Source: Micromonospora violae (GTDB lineage Bacteria > Actinomycetota > Actinomycetes > Mycobacteriales > Micromonosporaceae). Taken from it: 64,000 nucleotides of DNA. This document shows positions 16,892 to 25,825 of this stretch, piece after piece. A program made the position numbers and the translations under genes. The DNA lies in the NCBI RefSeq assembly GCF_004217135.1, contig NZ_SHKK01000001.1, positions 6,448,001-6,512,000 on the forward strand, written 5' to 3'. How positions within the stretch are numbered: position 1 is the first letter of the stretch; every line of letters begins with the position of its first letter. A model generated the notes under the pieces. That model was not told the origin of the DNA. It did not search any database and saw only the letters and a list, made by a program, of their open reading frames with translations.

Positions 16892-19800
16892 GTGAGCAAA
16901 CGGCCAAAGATGGCGGGCTCCCTCCTGTCGCGGCTGCGCCGGCCGGCCAGCCGGCTCGGGGACATGCCGATCTGGTCCAAGCTCGGTCTCATCATGATCG
17001 TGCCGACCATCGCCACGGTCGTGGTGGGCACCAGTGGTCTCGTCGACCACGTGGAGACGCTCAACAATGCCAACCGGGCGGGCGACCTGGCGAATCTGTC
17101 GAGCTACTCGGGTGACCTGGTCGACAGCCTGCAGGACGAGCGGACCGCCGCCGTGCTGATGTTGGGCGCGGACGGGACGCAGCCGACAGCGCAGTACCAG
17201 GAGGCGTACAACCGGGTGAATTCCCGGGTGGACCAGGACGCGATCCCGTACCGGAAGCAGCGGGCCGAGATCGAGGATCTGCCGAGCAGCCTCGAGAGTC
17301 TGCTCGACAGCATCGACCAGAACCTGCAGGACCTGTCGGGCGTCCGCAGCCAGGTGTTCAACGGGAAGCTCGCGCTCACCGACTCCGTGCGGGCGTACGA
17401 CGGTCTGATCGACGACCTGCTCGCCATCCGCGACTCGTCCACGCAGCTCGCCGGTGACAACCAGCTGAGCGACCGGATGCGGGCCGCCGCGGCGGTCGCC
17501 CGGGAGAAGGAGTTCCTCTCCGGCCGTCGGGTCGTGGTCCACCGCGCGCTGGGCGTCAAGGGCGGAAAGCTCATGAACCCGACGCTGCGCAGGGACTACA
17601 TCGCCAGCGACACCGGCCAGATCCAGGCTGTGCAGAGCTTCAAGGCCGTGGCGACCCCGGAGGACGCGAAGTTCCACGACCAGACGATCGCGGGCGGCGA
17701 CCTCCGGCAGGCAAAGAACTACACCGGCTGGATCGACGGCAACACCACCGGCGACATGCGCGGTGCGCCGTTCGGCCCGGACCAGTGGGAAGCCGCCATG
17801 ACGGCCAACGCCAAGCTGATCCGCACCGTCGAGACGAAGCTCGACCGCGAAGTGGTGAGCCAGGCCGACAGCATCCGCTCGGACGTCCAGCGCCAGGTAT
17901 TCCTGGAGACCGGCCTGCTGCTCAGCATGCTGCTCCTGGCCATTCTCTTCGCGTACATGGTCGCCCGCTCGATGGCCCGATCCCTTCGCGAGCTGCGGCA
18001 GGGCGCGCTCTCCGTCGCCCAGTACGGCCTGCCGCAGGCGGTGGCCCGCCTGCGTGACCCGCAGGTCGTCGGGCAGCTCTCCCCGGTGCAGCTGGCCAAC
18101 CAGATCGCCGAGCCGCTCCCGGTGCGCACCAAGGACGAGTTCGGCCAGGTGACCGAGGCGTTCAACGCCGTCCACCTGGAAGCCGTCCGGACGGCGGCCG
18201 AGCAGGCGGCGCTGCGCGCCTCCGTCGCGACCATGTTCGTCAACCTGGCCCGCCGTTCACAGATCCTGGTCGACCGTCTCATCGGTCACCTCGACCGGTT
18301 GGAGCGCGGCGAGGAGGACCCGGACCGGCTGGCCGAGCTGTTCCAGCTCGACCACCTGGCGACCCGGATGCGCCGTAACGACGAGAACCTGCTGGTGCTC
18401 GCCGGTGCCGACTCCACCCGTGTGCAGCGCGAGCCGGCCGCTCTCATCGACGTGCTCCGCGCCGCGCAGTCCGAGGTCGAGCACTACACCCGGATCGAGT
18501 TCGGTGTCATCGACCGGGACATCGAGGTCGCCGCGCATGCGGTCAACGACCTGGTGCACCTCGTCGCGGAGCTGTTCGACAACGCCACCGCGTTCTCCCC
18601 GCCCGACTCGCAGGTCATGGTCGAGGCTCGCCGGGTCGGCGACCGCGCCTCGCTGTACGTGGAGGACCGCGGCATCGGCATCAGCGCCGACCAGTTGCAG
18701 GACCTCAACGAGCGGCTCGCCACGCCGCCGCAGGTGGACGTGGCCGTGTCCCGGATGATGGGCCTGGTCGTGGTCGCCCGGCTGGCGTCCCGGCACGGTG
18801 TCCGGGTCGAGCTGCGCCCCGGCAACGACCGCGGCACGGTCGCCGACGTGACTCTTCCCACGTCGGTGCTGGTGCCTCGGGCGCTCTCCGGTCGGGTTCA
18901 GCAGTCGCCGGCGCTGCCGGCGGCCGGCGCTCCCCAGTTCGGTGGGCCGCAGTCCGGTGCTCCGCAGGTCGGTGGGTCCGCGCCCGCCTTCGGTGCGCTG
19001 CCTGCGCTGGGCAACGGCCCGCGCCCGAGCGAGTCGGGCAACCAGGTCACCCTGGGCGGTCGTCCGTTCGAGCCCGCCTCGCGCAACGGCGCCGGCACCC
19101 CCGCCAACGGCGGTTCGTACCGCTCGATGCCGGCCTGGTCCGATCTGACCGGCGCGGCCGGCACGAACGGCGGCGACGGGTTCACCCCCCGGTCGGCCAA
19201 CGGCCAGGGGACCGACCCGCTGCCGCAGCGCCGGGCCGGGGACGACACCCCGACCACCGGCCAGCAGCAGTCGATTCCGCGCCAGCTGCCGAGCAGCCCC
19301 GAGGCGCACCCGTACTCGGCGCCGCCGGTCTCCGCGCAGCCCTACTCCGGCGCGCCGGTCTCCGCCGCTCCGGCCTCGGGGCAGCCCTACTCCGGGCAGC
19401 CGTACTCGGGCGCGCCGTACGGCGGTGCGCCGGTCTCCGCCGCTCCGGCCTCCGGGCAGCCGTACGCCGGTCCGCCGGTGTCGGCGTCGCCGGTCTCGGC
19501 GTCGCCAGCGTCCGGGCAGCCGTACTCGGCTCAGCCGTACTCGGCGCCGCCCGCCACCGCCCAGTCGTTCAGCGGGTTCGAGCCGCGATCGGCCCCGCCC
19601 GCGCAGGCAGCCAGCGCCCCGGCACCGCCGGCCTGGCCGCCAGTGCCAGGTGGCGACCGGGACACGGCCACCCCGCCGGTCCCCGAGCGGCTCGCCGCCG
19701 CGCTGGACATGACGACCGAACTGCCGCGTGTGCCGCGACCCGGCGAGCAGCCGGCCGCAGCCCAGCCGCCGGCTCCGGCACCGCAGCCGGCTCCGGCTCC

Positions 19801-20506
19801 GGCCCCGCAGACCCGGCCGGCACCGCAGCAGCCGCAGGCGCAGAACCGTCAGCGGTACGCGGACGAGACGATGGAGCTACCGATCTTCCGGGAGCTCGAG
19901 TCGGCCTGGTTCCGTACCCGCCGCCCGGGCTCGGAGGAGACGGCCAGCGGCCAGCCGGCGACGAACGGCGACTCCGCGACCCAGCAGTTCGCCACGGTCG
20001 ACGCCACCGGTCGGGCAGTCCACAAGACACCACCCGGGACGACAGGTAACACACCGATGGCAGACACTCCGACGGTCGGAGGGGCGCCGCGGGACAACGG
20101 CTCCACAGCGAGTGAGGGCGCCCACCCCGGTCTCGCCGAGAGCCTGCCGAACCGCCGGCCTCAACCGCAGAGCAACGGCTGGCAGACCGCTGCCGACGAC
20201 GGCTGGCGGGCTGCCTCCGCGGCGGCCGGCGCGGTGCCGGTGAGCGAGACCACCACCACCGGCCTGCCGAAACGTAAGCCGATGGCGCAGCTGGTGCCCG
20301 GCGCGGTGGAGAAGCCCACCACCTCGGTCCAGCGGCGCTCCCCGGAGGCGGTTCGTGGCCTGCTCTCCGCCTACCATCGGGGCGTGCAGCGAGGGCGTAG
20401 CACCTCGGACAACCCGACCAGCCCGGAGGCGACTCCGGGAGGGCAATCCTCGCAGTCTGGCTCAGGCCCGGTGGCCGGGAGCGGGCAGAAGGAGCAAGAA
20501 GGATGA
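16892..20506 (+). CDS. Conservon sensor kinase with nitrate/sulfonate-sensing domain (CvnA type)
   Basis: 1204 residues. Order: cytoplasmic N-terminus, helix about 28-50, extracellular NIT-type helical sensor (about 52-330), helix about 336-358, HAMP-like linker, the DHp-like segment [21 protein letters not shown]...[18 protein letters not shown] (about 448-505), and a HATPase_c domain with N-box [15 protein letters not shown] near 555, VEDRGIGIS near 590 and the G2 box [14 protein letters not shown]. There is no H-E/D-x-P phospho-acceptor; the family is atypical. A Pro/Gly/Ser-rich stretch (about 660-1010) with Q-P-Y-S-G repeats leads to a conserved tail with LESAWF and [14 protein letters not shown]. 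Its stop overlaps the next start (ATGA), giving the operon kinase-roadblock-DUF742-GTPase. Confidence 0.92.
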
Positions 20507-20907
20507 CAACCTCGCAGGATCTTGGTTGGCTACTGGCCAACTTCGCCGACCGGGTGCCCGGCGTCGCGCATGCGGTCGCCGTCTCCGCGGACGGCCTACT
20601 CCTCGCGTCGTCACGGGATCTGCCGCGTGACCGGGCAGACCAGCTCGCCGCGATCTCGTCGGGTCTGGTCAGTTTGACCCAGGGGGCAGCACGCTGCTTC
20701 GAGGGAGGCGCGGTGTTGCAGACCGTCGTGGAGATGGACAATGGCTTCCTGTTCCTGATGTCCATCTCGGACGGCTCGTCCTTCGCCGTGCTGGCGGCCC
20801 GCAGCTCCGACGTAGGCCAGGTTGGCTACGAGATGGCGCTGCTGGTCGACCGGGTGGGCGACGCGCTGACCCCGCAGCCGCGTGCGGCTGCGGGCATGCT
20901 GGGCTGA
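20503..20907 (+). CDS. Roadblock/LC7 domain protein (CvnB type)
   Basis: 134 residues. A profilin-like roadblock/LC7 fold: [25 protein letters not shown] at the start and [17 protein letters not shown] in the middle helix. In conservons this protein is thought to act as a regulator (GAP-like) of the CvnD GTPase and to associate with the kinase. Overlaps the kinase gene by 4 bases. C-terminus ends with a short Ala-rich tail. Confidence 0.93.
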
Positions 20908-21006
20908 CACCCTTGCCGATCGTGAGGTCGGCACGACTGCAACAACGACAACGACGGGTTTCACCGGTGGGAGCCGGTAACGGGTGCGAGGGAGGTGAGC
21001 GGCGAG

Positions 21007-21384
21007 ATGGCCGATCGTGACGAACCAACCGGGGCGTTGGTCCGTCCATACGCCGTGACCCGTGGTCGCACCCGTCCCCGGCTCGACATCGCGCTGGAGG
21101 CGCTCGTCGAGACGACGGTGCGCGGCCGGGCCGCTGCCAATGGCAACGGCGGCCAGGGCCGCGAACACCAGTACATCGCCGCGCTGTGTGACGGACGCGT
21201 GCAATCGCTCGCAGAGATCGCGGCGCGGATGCAGCTCCCGCTTGGTGTGGCCCGGGTGCTCATCGCCGACATGGCGACGGACGGCCTGGTCGCGGTCCAC
21301 GAGCCGACCATTTTGGACGACTCCGACGACGCGGTGGGCACTGAACTGCTGGAGAGGGTGCTGAGTGGACTTCGCAGGCTCTGA
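21007..21384 (+). CDS. DUF742 protein (CvnC type)
   Basis: 125 residues from ATG 21007; GTG 20995 overlaps the Shine-Dalgarno GGAGG (20991-20995) and was rejected. The DUF742 pattern is complete: LVRPYAVTRGRTRPR, the AIETTV-like LEALVETTV, then a winged-helix-like segment with CDGRVQSLAEIAARMQLPLGVARVLIADMATDGLVAVH. It ends LLERVLSGLRRL as in other conservon members. Suspected adaptor between sensor kinase and GTPase, possibly DNA-binding. The next gene starts inside its last seven codons. Confidence 0.92.
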   Translation: MADRDEPTGALVRPYAVTRGRTRPRLDIALEALVETTVRGRAAANGNGGQGREHQYIAALCDGRVQSLAEIAARMQLPLGVARVLIADMATDGLVAVHEPTILDDSDDAVGTELLERVLSGLRRL

Positions 21385-21979
21385 CATGTCGCACCGCCCG
21401 CCGAGCCCGAGCGGCCGCGTGACGTCGGCGAAGATCGTTATCGCCGGTGGATTCGGCGTCGGTAAGACGACGCTGGTCGGCTCGGTCTCGGAGATCACGC
21501 CGCTGACCACCGAGGCCATCATGACCTCCGCTGGCGTGGGCGTCGACGACACCCGGCAGGTGCCGGGCAAGACGACGACCACGGTGGCCATGGACTTCGG
21601 CCGGATCTCGATCGACCGTGACCTGATCCTGTACCTCTTCGGTACGCCGGGTCAGACCCGTTTCTGGTTCATGTGGGACGAACTGGTGCGGGGTGCGATC
21701 GGTGCGGTCGTGCTGGTGGACACCCGCCGGCTGGCCGACTGCTTCGCGGCGATCGACTTCTTCGAGCACCGACGCCTGCCGTACCTGGTGGCGATCAACT
21801 GCTTCGACGGAATGCAGTACCACGACCCGCAGGATGTCCGGGACGCCTTGGCGATCTCGAGCGACGTGCCGGTGGTGGCCTGCGCCGCCCGTAACCGGGA
21901 GTCGACGAAGCACGTGCTGATCTCGCTGGTCGAGTACGTGCTGACCATGCGCCGTACGCGCGCCGTCGCCCCGGCCTGA
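21365..21979 (+). CDS. Conservon small GTPase (CvnD type)
   Basis: 204 residues from GTG 21365, overlapping CvnC by 20 bases, with GGAGAGG 5-6 bases upstream; the resulting N-terminus MDFAGS matches family members better than the internal ATG at 21386. G-motifs: P-loop GGFGVGKTTLVG, the DxxG-like LFGTPGQ (Gln in the switch position), and AINCFDG in place of N/TKxD, as in the MglA/Cvn-type group. Works with the roadblock protein as a nucleotide-dependent switch at the membrane, relaying signals from the kinase to development or secondary metabolism in streptomycetes. Transcription ends at a strong bidirectional hairpin. Confidence 0.93.
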   Translation: MDFAGSDMSHRPPSPSGRVTSAKIVIAGGFGVGKTTLVGSVSEITPLTTEAIMTSAGVGVDDTRQVPGKTTTTVAMDFGRISIDRDLILYLFGTPGQTRFWFMWDELVRGAIGAVVLVDTRRLADCFAAIDFFEHRRLPYLVAINCFDGMQYHDPQDVRDALAISSDVPVVACAARNRESTKHVLISLVEYVLTMRRTRAVAPA

Positions 21980-22234: not shown

Positions 22235-24655
22235 TCAGGACTGGTAGCCCGCCGAACGGTACTCGTACTCCCGGTCGTCGTCGCGGTCTCCGTGGTCACG
22301 GCTGAAGTCCCAACCGCCGGCCGCCTCGCGGCCGGGCCGACCGCCCACCGCGAAACCGCCGATCTCCTGGCCGCGACGCCAGCCACGGAAGTAGCCGGTG
22401 GTGTTCTCCGCGAGGCTTGCCGCATCACGCACTATCCGCAATGGGCGCTCCTCGCGCAGCGGGGAACCCGGCACCAGGTTGGCCTGCGGCACCCGCTTCG
22501 GCAGACCGGCGTTGGTCTCGGCGCCCACCGCCGGGCGGGCGGCCTGCTCCGCGGCCTGCCAGCCGGTGTCGGCAGTGGTCGACCAGTCCAGGTCGGACTC
22601 CTCGGCGTGCCCGACGAACCAGGCCGACTTGGCCTGCGCGAAGATCAGCAAATCGCCGTCGCCCTCGTCAGCGACCGGCGGAGGCCGGTGCTCCATCGGC
22701 GGAGGCCGGTGCTCGACCGGGGGTGGCGGCCGGTGCTCGGCGGCACGCTCGGTGCGGGCGGGCGGCCGACCGTTGCGAGCGGCCTGCTCGCGGTCGACCA
22801 GGCGCAGCGGTGGCGTCTCCAGGTGCTGGTCCGCAGGAGGGTTGAGCCCCTCGCGCAGCGCCCGGTCGGCCAGCGGCGGCGGCTCGACCAGCCGCAGCAT
22901 CGGGGGTTCCGGTGGCAGGTCGTCCGCCAACCAGGGCGGGGTGACCCGACCGTCGGCCCGACCCGGGTCGGTGGGGGCGTCGACACCGCGGCTGCCGCCG
23001 TACGAGTAGGCCACCGGGTTGTCCGGTGAGCTGTCGGCCGGGTCCTCCGGGTTGTTGACCAGCGGCCAGTTGGCACGCGAGCCGGGTGGTGCGGACTCCT
23101 GCCCGGGCCGGGGGGTCGGCACCGGAATGCTGAGGTCGGTGGCGCTGAACCCGCCGGTGGGTGGCTCGTCGACCGGGCGTTGCAGATGGCTCGGCCGGGG
23201 CTCGCCGTTGGTCTTGGGCCGGGGCGGAATGACCGTACGCTGCCGTTCGGCGCGCGCGTTGTTGATCGCGGCGGTGGTCAGCGTCGGCCGGAACGGCTCA
23301 CCGGCCTCGGCCGGCGGCACCTGGCCGCGCTGCGCCGGCGCGATCGGGGTGATCCCGGGTGGCGGAGGCGGCGGTGCGGAGACCGGCCGGTTGGTCGGAC
23401 CGTCGATCCGGCTGGAGGCCGGCTCGGTGCGGCTGGGCAGCGTGGACGATGGCGGACCAGCCATCGCCGCCGGAGTCATCGGGGCGGGTGCGACCGGCGG
23501 CGGCGTGACCGGCGCCGGGGCGACCGGCGGCGGCCCGAGCGGGCGGGGCGACGCCAGCGGCGCGTTGCCCGGGAGCGGCTCGGGGCGGCTGCGCCGCCCG
23601 GCGGCGGGTGCCGGCTCGACGGCCGGTGGGGTGGGTCGGACCGACCGCAGGCCGGCGTTGGTGCCGGCGAGGCCGCTCAACCCGGCGTTGGCGCCGGCCA
23701 GGCCGGTCAGCTCACCGACGGAGTCGCCACGGCGGGCAGCGGCGCGGCGGCCGGGTGCCTGGGCCGGCGTGCTGGCCCGGGAGCTGAGCGCGCTGACCAG
23801 CGCCTCACACCCGGCATCGCAGGCCCGTACGGAGGCGACGGCCTGACGGACCGTCTCGGCCACCGCGGACGTGAGAGCCCGGTTGACCGCGGCGCGTCGG
23901 GGTGTCTCGGAGATGGCGACGCGCAGGGCGGTGACCGCCTCGTTGATCTCCTCGGCGTCGGCGACCCCGTCCGCCGCGAGGTGCGCGGCGATGGCGTCCG
24001 CCGCGACCGACACCTCGCGGCCCCGGGCCACGGTGCCGCCGAGCATGCCCGGCTCGGGCAGCGCGTCCAGCACCGCCAGCGAGACCGGCTCGGCCGGGTC
24101 CGGGTAGGCGCGGAGGGCCGCCGGGTAGAGCTCCCGCAGAACCTCCCGCAGCGCCACGGCGGCCGAGTGCCGCCCGCTGGCCAACGCGGCGTGCGCGGAG
24201 AGCACCTGCTTGTAGCCGGCGAGGTCCCGGGGTGCCGGCAGGGTGACGGCGGAGAGCGCCCCCGCCTGCAACGCGCGGGCGAGGCCGACCGCCCGTCGTT
24301 CGGCCGGAGGTGACTGCATCTCCTCAAGGGAGTCGTCATCGGCGAACCGCTCGGCGAAGTCGTCCACCGAGTCGTCGTCGGCGATCGCCAGGGGTCGCCC
24401 GGCCGCGCTCAGCAGCGAGGTGACCGTGTGGTCGTCGCTGTCGGCGGCGATGGCCGCACCGCTCGGCCCGCCCGACCGCTCCACGAGCAGCGCGACGAGC
24501 TGGGCGTAGCCAGCGGCGTCATCGCCGATCTCGCAGACATGCAGCAGACGGCCTGCGTCGTCGACCACAGCGGACGTCAGCGTCGAACCGGCGGAGGCCG
24601 GTCGGTCAGCCGGATCCGCCGAGGCCAGACCGCAGTAAACGCGCACGAGCGCCAC
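22235..24655 (-). CDS. IS110-transposase-like N-terminus fused to conservon-kinase-type C-terminal tail
   Basis: 806 residues, GTG start with GGAGGAGG 8 bases upstream. Residues 1-295 follow the IS110 order by eye: VVDDAGRLLHVCEIGDD (RuvC-like strands), AAGRPLAIADDDS, then AALASGRHSAAVALREVLRELYPAAL, LDALPEPG, and the helical spacer AIAAHLAADGVADAEEINEAV...ACDAGCEALVSAL. The DEDD acidic positions look lost (CGLA for GID; PPAERRAV for KTDAKDAR) and the serine transposase domain is absent. Residues about 320-650 are Pro-rich. About 670-765 match the tail of the conservon kinase: SAWF, WSTTADTGWQAAE, GLPKRVPQANLVPG, GYFRGWRRGQ. There are no terminal repeats. It lies 63 bases downstream of the acidic-protein gene. 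Interpretation: a domesticated, catalytically dead relative that works with the conservon. Confidence 0.72.
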   Translation of the reverse strand: MALVRVYCGLASADPADRPASAGSTLTSAVVDDAGRLLHVCEIGDDAAGYAQLVALLVERSGGPSGAAIAADSDDHTVTSLLSAAGRPLAIADDDSVDDFAERFADDDSLEEMQSPPAERRAVGLARALQAGALSAVTLPAPRDLAGYKQVLSAHAALASGRHSAAVALREVLRELYPAALRAYPDPAEPVSLAVLDALPEPGMLGGTVARGREVSVAADAIAAHLAADGVADAEEINEAVTALRVAISETPRRAAVNRALTSAVAETVRQAVASVRACDAGCEALVSALSSRASTPAQAPGRRAAARRGDSVGELTGLAGANAGLSGLAGTNAGLRSVRPTPPAVEPAPAAGRRSRPEPLPGNAPLASPRPLGPPPVAPAPVTPPPVAPAPMTPAAMAGPPSSTLPSRTEPASSRIDGPTNRPVSAPPPPPPGITPIAPAQRGQVPPAEAGEPFRPTLTTAAINNARAERQRTVIPPRPKTNGEPRPSHLQRPVDEPPTGGFSATDLSIPVPTPRPGQESAPPGSRANWPLVNNPEDPADSSPDNPVAYSYGGSRGVDAPTDPGRADGRVTPPWLADDLPPEPPMLRLVEPPPLADRALREGLNPPADQHLETPPLRLVDREQAARNGRPPARTERAAEHRPPPPVEHRPPPMEHRPPPVADEGDGDLLIFAQAKSAWFVGHAEESDLDWSTTADTGWQAAEQAARPAVGAETNAGLPKRVPQANLVPGSPLREERPLRIVRDAASLAENTTGYFRGWRRGQEIGGFAVGGRPGREAAGGWDFSRDHGDRDDDREYEYRSAGYQS

Positions 24656-24718: not shown

Positions 24719-25651
24719 TCAGTCGCGCCAGTCCACGACCGCAGAGATCTTGCCGACAATGGTGCGCCAACCCAAACTCGCGGTCTGTGCCCCGATCTTC
24801 TTGAGCCGCCGCCGACCCATGAACGCGCCGATCCCACCGTTGGCGGTGGCCCGCAGCGCCTCGTCCAGGTCGTCGAGGCTGGAGCCGGCGGAGAGCATGT
24901 CGAGTACCGCAGGCAGCCGCAATGCGTACGAGAGGTCGCGCGCGACCTCGCCCGCCTCGATCAGCAGGGTCGAATCCCACGTGTCGTGCCCGCCGCGCAG
25001 GTTCTCCACGACCAGGTCGAGCTCGTAGGTGTCCTCGTCGAGCGGAGCGATATCCGCCGGCTCCACCCGTTCGGACAATTCATTCCAGCTGTCCAGTTGG
25101 GACAGATCGTTGGGCGCACCGGATCGGATGAAACTGACAAGCGATTCGGGGGTCTTGAACAGCAGCAGCTTGCCCCGGTTGCTGAGGAAGACCGGCACCT
25201 CCTCGTCGTCCGCCTCGTCCGCCTCGTCCGCGACGGCCTCGTCCGACTCGTCGTCGGTGTCGGCGGCGTCACGGCGGCGGCGGGTCGACTCGTCGTCCTC
25301 GTCCTCGGCGGCGAACTCCTCGGCCAACTCCTCGTCGAGGATGACGACGGTCTCGTCGTCCTCTTCCTCCTCGATCGCCTGGCGGCGGGCGAGGAACGGG
25401 TCGTCCTGGTCGCGCTCGGTCACGTCGGTCGGGGTCAGCGAGCTGGCCGGCCGGTACGCCCGGAGCGTGAAGCCGGTGCCGGCGGGCAGGGCGATCTCCA
25501 CCGGGTCGATGCGCAGCTCGTCCCAGAGGGAGCGGTCGATCGACGCCGACGGGCGGTCGGTCCCCTCGGTCTCATCTGGCTCGGCGGCGCCGGTGGTGTC
25601 GTCGAGCTCGGGCTCGTCGGCGTCGGGCCGTTGGGGCGACTGGCGGGCCAC
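24719..25651 (-). CDS. Acidic protein of unknown function
   Basis: 310 residues from GTG 25651 (GGAGG five bases upstream); a longer frame exists but its upstream codons are poor. N-terminal 100 residues are Asp/Glu/Pro-rich, then an intensely acidic low-complexity stretch (about 105-175: EEEEDDETVVILDEELAEEFAAEDEDDES and DESDEAVADEADEADDEE). The C-terminal 130 residues look folded: VPVFLSNRGKLLLFKTPESLVSFIRSG and DLVVENLRGGHDTWDSTLLIEAGEVARDLSYALRL. A short basic end includes MGRRRLKKIGAQTASLGWR. No family recognised. Lies just upstream of the IS110-like/conservon-tail gene on the same strand, so the two probably share a transcript. Acidic tracts often mimic DNA or bind basic partners, but no such role is shown. 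Confidence 0.6.
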   Translation of the reverse strand: MARQSPQRPDADEPELDDTTGAAEPDETEGTDRPSASIDRSLWDELRIDPVEIALPAGTGFTLRAYRPASSLTPTDVTERDQDDPFLARRQAIEEEEDDETVVILDEELAEEFAAEDEDDESTRRRRDAADTDDESDEAVADEADEADDEEVPVFLSNRGKLLLFKTPESLVSFIRSGAPNDLSQLDSWNELSERVEPADIAPLDEDTYELDLVVENLRGGHDTWDSTLLIEAGEVARDLSYALRLPAVLDMLSAGSSLDDLDEALRATANGGIGAFMGRRRLKKIGAQTASLGWRTIVGKISAVVDWRD

Positions 25652-25825
25652 GCTGACCTCCGTGTGCTTCGGGTTGCCCACCCACCGGGTCTCTGACCGG
25701 CGAGTGACTCTGGGCACATACCCTAGTCGGCGGCCCTGGGTGACCGATGCCCGCACCCCGGGGGCCGCTTGGCGCACAGGTCCGACCTGCTGGGGGTCAC
25801 CCCTGGCGGAGCGGCCGTTCGACAA

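Follow-up and report, generated by a model that had tools for sequence, protein, structure and literature searches.

An IS110-derived gene with a conservon-kinase tail next to a conservon in Micromonospora violae

Conservons combine a sensor kinase (CvnA), a roadblock protein (CvnB), a DUF742 protein (CvnC) and a small GTPase (CvnD), and signal transfer through them is, according to PMC13343842, poorly understood. Interaction of CvnA9 with both CvnB9 and CvnC9 has been published (PMC8510531, reporting Komatsu et al.), MfpD, a homologue of CvnB, acts as GTPase-activating protein (GAP) for its GTPase (PMC13015309), and two accessory proteins, CvnE (P450) and CvnF (GAF), have been named (PMC13343842). 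In the IS110-type recombinase IS621, residues D11, E60, D102 and D105 of the RuvC domain and S241 of the Tnp domain form the active site, each being required for recombination (PMC11208158); these four sources are cited throughout from excerpts. Here we describe a gene in which an IS110-derived domain is joined to the tail of a conservon kinase. It lies in a stretch of 64,000 nucleotides of M. violae (assembly GCF_004217135.1, contig NZ_SHKK01000001.1, positions 6,448,001 to 6,512,000 of the forward strand), hereafter the window, as a minus-strand open reading frame (ORF), 24655-22235, open throughout its 806 codons and starting with GTG; the start may sit 8 codons further upstream, and many relatives are annotated as 814 amino acids (aa) long. 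A protein search returned 861 relatives with E<=0.001 among 7995 scored candidates, the best 120 being listed; many relatives carry the database label "transposase", and the window protein itself had no Pfam, NCBIfam or PDB sequence match. Our literature search, by title and beginning of the abstract, brought up no description of a conservon-tailed IS110-derived protein.

The IS110-derived N-domain

Of the 61 genomes of the family 60 have a match to the N-domain, and of its 44 genera 43. From the 60 matched genomes, with G149, G151, G165, G171, G179, G189 and G200 left out, 52 loci including the window were analysed; L041 (G177) was excluded from the counts, as a frame change interrupts its gene. 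At that locus frame changes split both the fusion gene and cvnA, through either sequence error or decay. In the wider class the N-domain profile matched 25 of 197 genomes, with three Micromonospora genomes at E 1.6e-114 or better and the next best at 1.7e-27. Four of the other matches from the class and family searches were scanned and proved to be IS110 transposases with both domains, G149 and G201 additionally carry an IS110-type protein (L090 and L082), and G205 has a short second match.

The preliminary description of the gene, drawn from the sequence without database searches, had recognised an IS110-like N-terminal part, and this was borne out. DEDD_Tnp_IS110 (PF01548) matched 26 of 61 family members, the window included, at E<=1 (best 9.7e-11), and exceeded its cut-off in three of the members that were scanned one by one (L166, P0137 and P0164), the Actinocatenispora member L166 scoring 39.0 bits against a cut-off of 29; the Stackebrandtia member L077 gave no PF01548 match on a single scan. 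A family profile built from 27 sequences aligned with five IS110 proteins over 204 columns (hhalign probability 99.4, E 5.3e-22), and residues 29-184 of the window protein matched a protein annotated as IS110 transposase in a plasmid record of Streptomyces (35.8% identity, E 7e-6). The same five IS110 proteins match the IS621 structure 8wt6 (E 8.7e-21), which fixes the active-site columns.

In these columns the window protein reads A-D-A-R, so that the earlier statement that the DEDD positions are not acidic holds for three of the four and was slightly too strong for the second, which is Asp rather than Glu. None of the 52 members has an acidic first residue; at the second position 43 have D and two have E, at the third eight have D or E, and at the fourth two have D, while all four are kept in seven IS110 comparison rows. 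The Tnp serine domain (PF02371), also reported missing earlier, is indeed absent from the family (0 of 61 members at E<=1) and present in all four IS110 proteins scanned. Of 22 columns that are basic (K, R or H) in at least six of the seven IS110 rows, 18 are non-basic in most of the 52 members and four are still basic; several of the lost ones are now D or E. The mean isoelectric point (pI) of the N-domain is 4.78 versus 6.69 for IS110 N-terminal parts, with overlapping ranges, and the mean net charge is -13.4 (range -21 to 0) versus -3.4 (range -11 to 2). The loss of the DEDD residues and of the basic columns and the absence of the Tnp domain together argue that the N-domain is a dismantled DEDD enzyme predicted to have no catalysis left, and that nucleic-acid binding is probably gone as well.

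The ratio of nonsynonymous to synonymous substitution rates (dN/dS), computed by a simple counting method for 15 pairs of six Micromonospora genes, had medians of 0.14 for the N-domain, 0.31 for the linker (residues 300-660), 0.10 for the tail and 0.08 for the C-terminal extension, the linker being the fastest evolving part of the protein. Vertically inherited at a single locus, under purifying selection and with its catalytic residues lost, the fusion gene is a domesticated transposase gene, as the preliminary description had supposed.

The kinase tail and its roadblock neighbours

Residues 301-660 consist of 24% Pro, 13% Ala and 11% Arg, in keeping with the Pro-rich linker first described. 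The tail that follows it had been said to repeat that of the neighbouring CvnA kinase, and pairwise BLASTP agrees (E 7e-7); the four motifs first named are all present, in an identical order, in the two proteins. BLASTP also aligned the two linkers with each other (32.7 bits), a match of low-complexity appearance. For the motif part, chance low-complexity similarity is ruled out by the comparison of the tail profile with a CvnA tail profile (E 5.8e-20 over 83 columns spanning three of the four motifs). As text patterns, SAWF and YFxG occur in all 52 members, GLPxRxPxANLVPG in 51 and W..D..W in 48. Compared with solved structures, the tail profile had one match, at E 0.68 and with an unrelated name.

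Searching the class with the tail profile gave matches in 79 of 197 genomes at E<=0.01, from which 32 loci were hand-picked, four of them in Micromonospora genomes, with 37 tail-bearing ORFs. A CvnA kinase core is present in the same ORF in 35 of the 37; the remaining ORFs are a fragment at the beginning of a contig (L236) and a frame-split kinase (L249). In this sample the tail is thus not widespread in unrelated proteins; had it been, this would have counted against the first interpretation of the gene. A CvnB-type roadblock gene adjoins 36 of the 37, and CvnC and CvnD accompany most of the tail-bearing kinases. The genome of M. violae itself encodes nine roadblock proteins and eight kinases that adjoin a roadblock, of which six match a tail profile, L267 weakly. 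The kinase tail closest to the family profile lies at 1.361 Mb (E 2.2e-24), ahead of the neighbouring CvnA (E 6.9e-16), and the earlier suggestion that the tail was taken from the neighbouring kinase is thus not favoured. This closest kinase (L232) is of CvnA type, with a full tail followed by a roadblock gene, and represents a reduced conservon, no CvnC or CvnD being found in the 17 kb covered there. Another locus of the same genome, at ~4.192 Mb (L266), has a divergent roadblock gene; in the 14 kb covered there no neighbour resembling CvnA, CvnC or CvnD was found.

The conservon next to the fusion gene was confirmed by Pfam (CvnA-B-C-D, 16892-21979, plus strand); it faces the fusion gene tail to tail, so that the latter is encoded outside the cvnABCD operon and on the opposite strand. 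This convergent arrangement recurs in 46 of the 52 loci, and all six genomes without a conservon at the locus have DUF742 (cvnC-type) genes elsewhere; a distribution independent of conservons, which would have spoken against the first interpretation, was thus not observed. In one of these six, G159, a full CvnA-D conservon (L269, G159:C1, ~1.498-1.503 Mb) is located ~13 kb away, in the orientation of the fusion gene and not convergent to it. All loci but L080 (51 of 52) have a SatS-like gene upstream of the fusion, those without a conservon included.

We also inspected a set of named genomes, the best 80 of 231 tail relatives, which overlaps in species with the 52 loci. Stackebrandtia and Actinocatenispora belong by taxonomy look-up to Glycomycetaceae and Micromonosporaceae, respectively; all genera of the set we take to be members of one or the other family. 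N-domain and tail share one frame in 73 of the 80, the frames are split in two (L187 and L213), and in five the sequence starts inside the gene (L170, L175, L211, L214 and L228). At five loci of the set (L160, L161, L165, L190 and L207) the contig ends shortly past the gene, and these are uninformative on the conservon. At the Actinoplanes and Paractinoplanes loci L157, L159, L162, L163, L167, L172 and L179, ~4 to 7 kb separate the fusion gene from the conservon, with order and orientation kept.

In 14 of the 52 loci, all on deep branches, the fusion gene has a roadblock gene of its own, which we call RB2, directly behind it in the same orientation; the RB2 alignment begins no more than 20 nucleotides (nt) from the fusion stop in 13 of them and 125 nt from it in L070. 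Among the named loci RB2 occurs in 13 of 80: three of Stackebrandtia, a Micromonosporaceae metagenome-assembled genome, Actinorhabdospora, Phytomonospora, two of Actinocatenispora, Longispora and four of Glycomyces. In Actinorhabdospora and Longispora the frame of the roadblock starts with the codon that follows the fusion stop, as tight as the cvnA-cvnB join of the window, where the two genes overlap by 4 nt (20503-20506). All four RB2 proteins scanned match Robl_LC7 above its cut-off, and the eleven RB2 proteins compared score at least 57% to each other in the rows listed and about 35-45% to other roadblocks. A relocated RB2 was sought in the M. violae genome and rejected, as no roadblock there comes near RB2; an RB2 query had its best match in the adjacent CvnB (42%).

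The conservon is missing at six of the 14 loci with RB2 versus none of the 38 without it (Fisher p 1.5e-4, the rows not being independent); all 38 have a conservon with CvnB at the locus, and every one of the 52 fusions has a roadblock gene nearby, be it its own, that of the conservon, or both. In a midpoint-rooted tree the 52 fusions are separated from five IS110 rows, and one crown group unites the 38 loci without RB2, with weak support for the crown branch (80/67) and strong support for crown plus L067 (100/95). The C-terminal extension is found in the lineages without RB2, with a partial form in L067. A strict rule of either RB2 or extension agrees with the text pattern (14 versus 38 loci, none with both or neither), but by eye L067 (G173) has RB2 together with a partial extension, so the rule is not absolute. 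This locus looks like an intermediate between the deep and crown forms.

Proposed role and alternative explanations

By its locus association and its homologous CvnA tail, the fusion protein is a predicted conservon-associated accessory protein. A partner shared with the kinase, proposed earlier as roadblock, DUF742 protein or GTPase, would remain the most likely reason for the common tail; gene order favours the roadblock among the three and so sharpens the proposal. The tail is kept beside a roadblock also at loci that have no CvnC and CvnD close by, which points to a kinase-to-roadblock connector, and in Micromonospora CvnB is likely the partner of both tails.

We consider it moderately probable, going by sequence comparison, that the dead IS110 RuvC domain is an accessory, non-kinase arm of the conservon, its tail docking the roadblock and its N-domain acting as a protein module. 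The tail would be a set of short linear motifs that dock a roadblock dimer of the CvnB/MglB type: in the deep lineages their own RB2, and in the crown group, including Micromonospora, the CvnB of the neighbouring conservon. The N-domain would stand in place of the sensor/ATPase body of the kinase, as a dimerising or input protein-protein module on a long flexible linker, so that the kinase and the IS110-derived protein would be two bodies that have a flexible linker and a plug of one kind in common, and the fusion protein may feed, buffer or compete with CvnA over the roadblock and hence over the GTPase CvnD. As to origin, an IS110 coding sequence may have become joined to the 3' end of a cvnA-like gene that was already trailed by cvnB, an event that would yield fusion and RB2 in one step, with RB2 lost later in the crown group. 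It is quite possible, if short of probable, that the RuvC domain thereby replaced the sensor kinase as the input of a G-protein switch, giving a kinase-free module of fusion and RB2, and that the crown group came to share CvnB with the kinase.

Several observations weigh against the accessory-arm reading. The synteny may be inherited rather than selected, the SatS-like gene being at least as constant, and conserved synteny alone is for that reason weak evidence. Published binding of CvnA9 extends to CvnC9 as well (PMC8510531). The crown tails, expected to fit CvnB, are no more CvnA-like than the deep ones: convergence on the CvnA tail after the loss of RB2 was looked for and not found (55.0 bits for crown versus 56.5 for deep tails, p 0.61). 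One tail ORF of the 37, L236 at its contig start, has no roadblock after the tail, and in the M. violae genome two kinases beside roadblocks, L264 (~4.449 Mb) and L268 (~2.587 Mb), match neither tail profile at E<=10. By eye these two end in GLPQRV or LPTRV, and the full tail is thus common but not universal among conservon kinases. IS110 N-terminal parts are themselves not strongly basic (mean net charge as above), and the N-domain profile, when run by sequence against solved structures, gave eight weak matches up to E 10, none of them IS110.

The likelihoods of the alternatives overlap and do not sum to one. The alternative that survives best, which we nevertheless think unlikely and which overlaps with the accessory arm, is a decoy or buffer that would occupy the CvnA-binding face of the roadblock and damp the kinase with no input of its own. 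It would fit a protein that has only its tail in common with CvnA and in which the Pfam scan found no sensor, HAMP, ATPase/kinase or membrane domain, but purifying selection on the N-domain (dN/dS 0.14) is beyond the need of a passive decoy, and the deep lineages supply a private roadblock. Rather improbable is a nucleic-acid tether, in which the N-domain would still bind DNA or RNA and anchor the switch formed by roadblock and GTPase on the chromosome or on an RNA. Its RuvC/IS110 ancestry and the binding of bridge RNA and DNA by IS110 recombinases (PMC11208158) speak for such a role, to which the lower mean pI (4.78 versus 6.69) and the 18 of 22 conserved basic columns lost in most members, several to D or E, are opposed.

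Docking of the tail to CvnC (DUF742) or CvnD (GTPase) instead of the roadblock appears distinctly improbable. A tail and a roadblock occur with neither CvnC nor CvnD in the stretch at six of the 52 family loci, at seven of the 80 named loci (with species overlap) and at the kinase L232, although one of those six family loci (G159) has a conservon ~13 kb off; CvnC and CvnD do accompany most of the sampled tail-bearing kinases, and the reported CvnA9-CvnC9 interaction (PMC8510531) is in line with such docking. We are very doubtful that the gene belongs to the core genome, adjoins the conservon and is functionally unconnected to it, its tail homology being old and meaningless today: the equally conserved SatS-like gene and the several kb between gene and conservon in some named loci would suit this explanation, but the tail is better kept than the N-domain at the deep loci L076-L081 (44-55% versus 25-30% identity to the window), and the RB2 operon also speaks against it. 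An ordinary or decaying IS110 transposase, as the name of the relatives and the IS110 homology would have it, is rejected as practically excluded by the single syntenic place in the family, the lost DEDD residues, the absent Tnp domain and purifying selection.

Gene neighbourhood and comparison with described systems

The features of the locus are collected in Table 1. The C-terminal part of the SatS-like gene product is weakly similar to SatS, an export chaperone of mycobacteria (40 bits, the cut-off being 700), and this gene and the fusion gene are possibly co-transcribed, sharing operon and function.

Table 1. Coordinates in the window of the fusion gene, its parts and the adjacent genes
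Feature	Position	Strand	Length or source
Whole gene: IS110-RuvC-like / Pro-rich linker / conservon-kinase tail	22235..24655	-	806 aa
N-domain, residues 1-293: degenerate IS110 RuvC (DEDD_Tnp_IS110) and helical part; catalytic columns A-D-A-R	23777..24655	-	
Pro/Ala/Arg-rich linker, residues 294-662, probably disordered	22670..23776	-	
Conservon-kinase-type tail, residues 663-764: IFxxxxSAWF, W..xxADxGW, GLPKRVPQANLVPG, YFRGWRRG	22364..22669	-	
Crown-group C-terminal extension, residues 765-806	22238..22363	-	
CvnA sensor kinase of the convergent conservon: NIT-HAMP-HATPase	16892..20506	+	Pfam
CvnA tail, including WQTAADDGW	19883..20401	+	
CvnB roadblock/LC7 (Robl_LC7)	20503..20907	+	Pfam
CvnC, DUF742	20995..21384	+	Pfam
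CvnD small GTPase (ATP_bind_1/GTPase models)	21365..21979	+	Pfam
SatS-like gene, conserved neighbour, 63 nt upstream of the fusion gene, same strand	24719..25825	-	

If the proposed role is correct, an IS110 transposase domain would have been exapted for signalling, in a family known for antibiotic production; for a gene conserved throughout that family the database label "transposase" is in any case corrected.

Among the described systems, the mycobacterial Mfp conservon is comparable in that MfpE and MfpD are homologues of CvnA and CvnB, with a roadblock GAP beside a sensor-kinase-like protein (PMC13015309). It differs in its fifth member, the pentapeptide-repeat protein MfpA, and the word "transposase" does not occur in that paper. 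From the accessory proteins CvnE (P450) and CvnF (GAF) the fusion protein differs in its IS110-derived domain and in being encoded outside the cvn operon and convergent to it; it bears the CvnA tail, whereas no tail is described for CvnE or CvnF in the excerpt of PMC13343842. With IS110 elements and IS621 (PMC11208158, PDB 8wt6) it has in common the RuvC part, in order and motifs, followed by the YPAAL region, while the DEDD residues, the Tnp serine domain and basic residues have been lost, a long Pro-rich linker and a kinase tail have been added, and the gene occupies one syntenic locus. To the conservon itself, CvnA-D, the fusion gene is linked likewise: its product carries the CvnA tail, and in the deep lineages a CvnB-type gene follows it.

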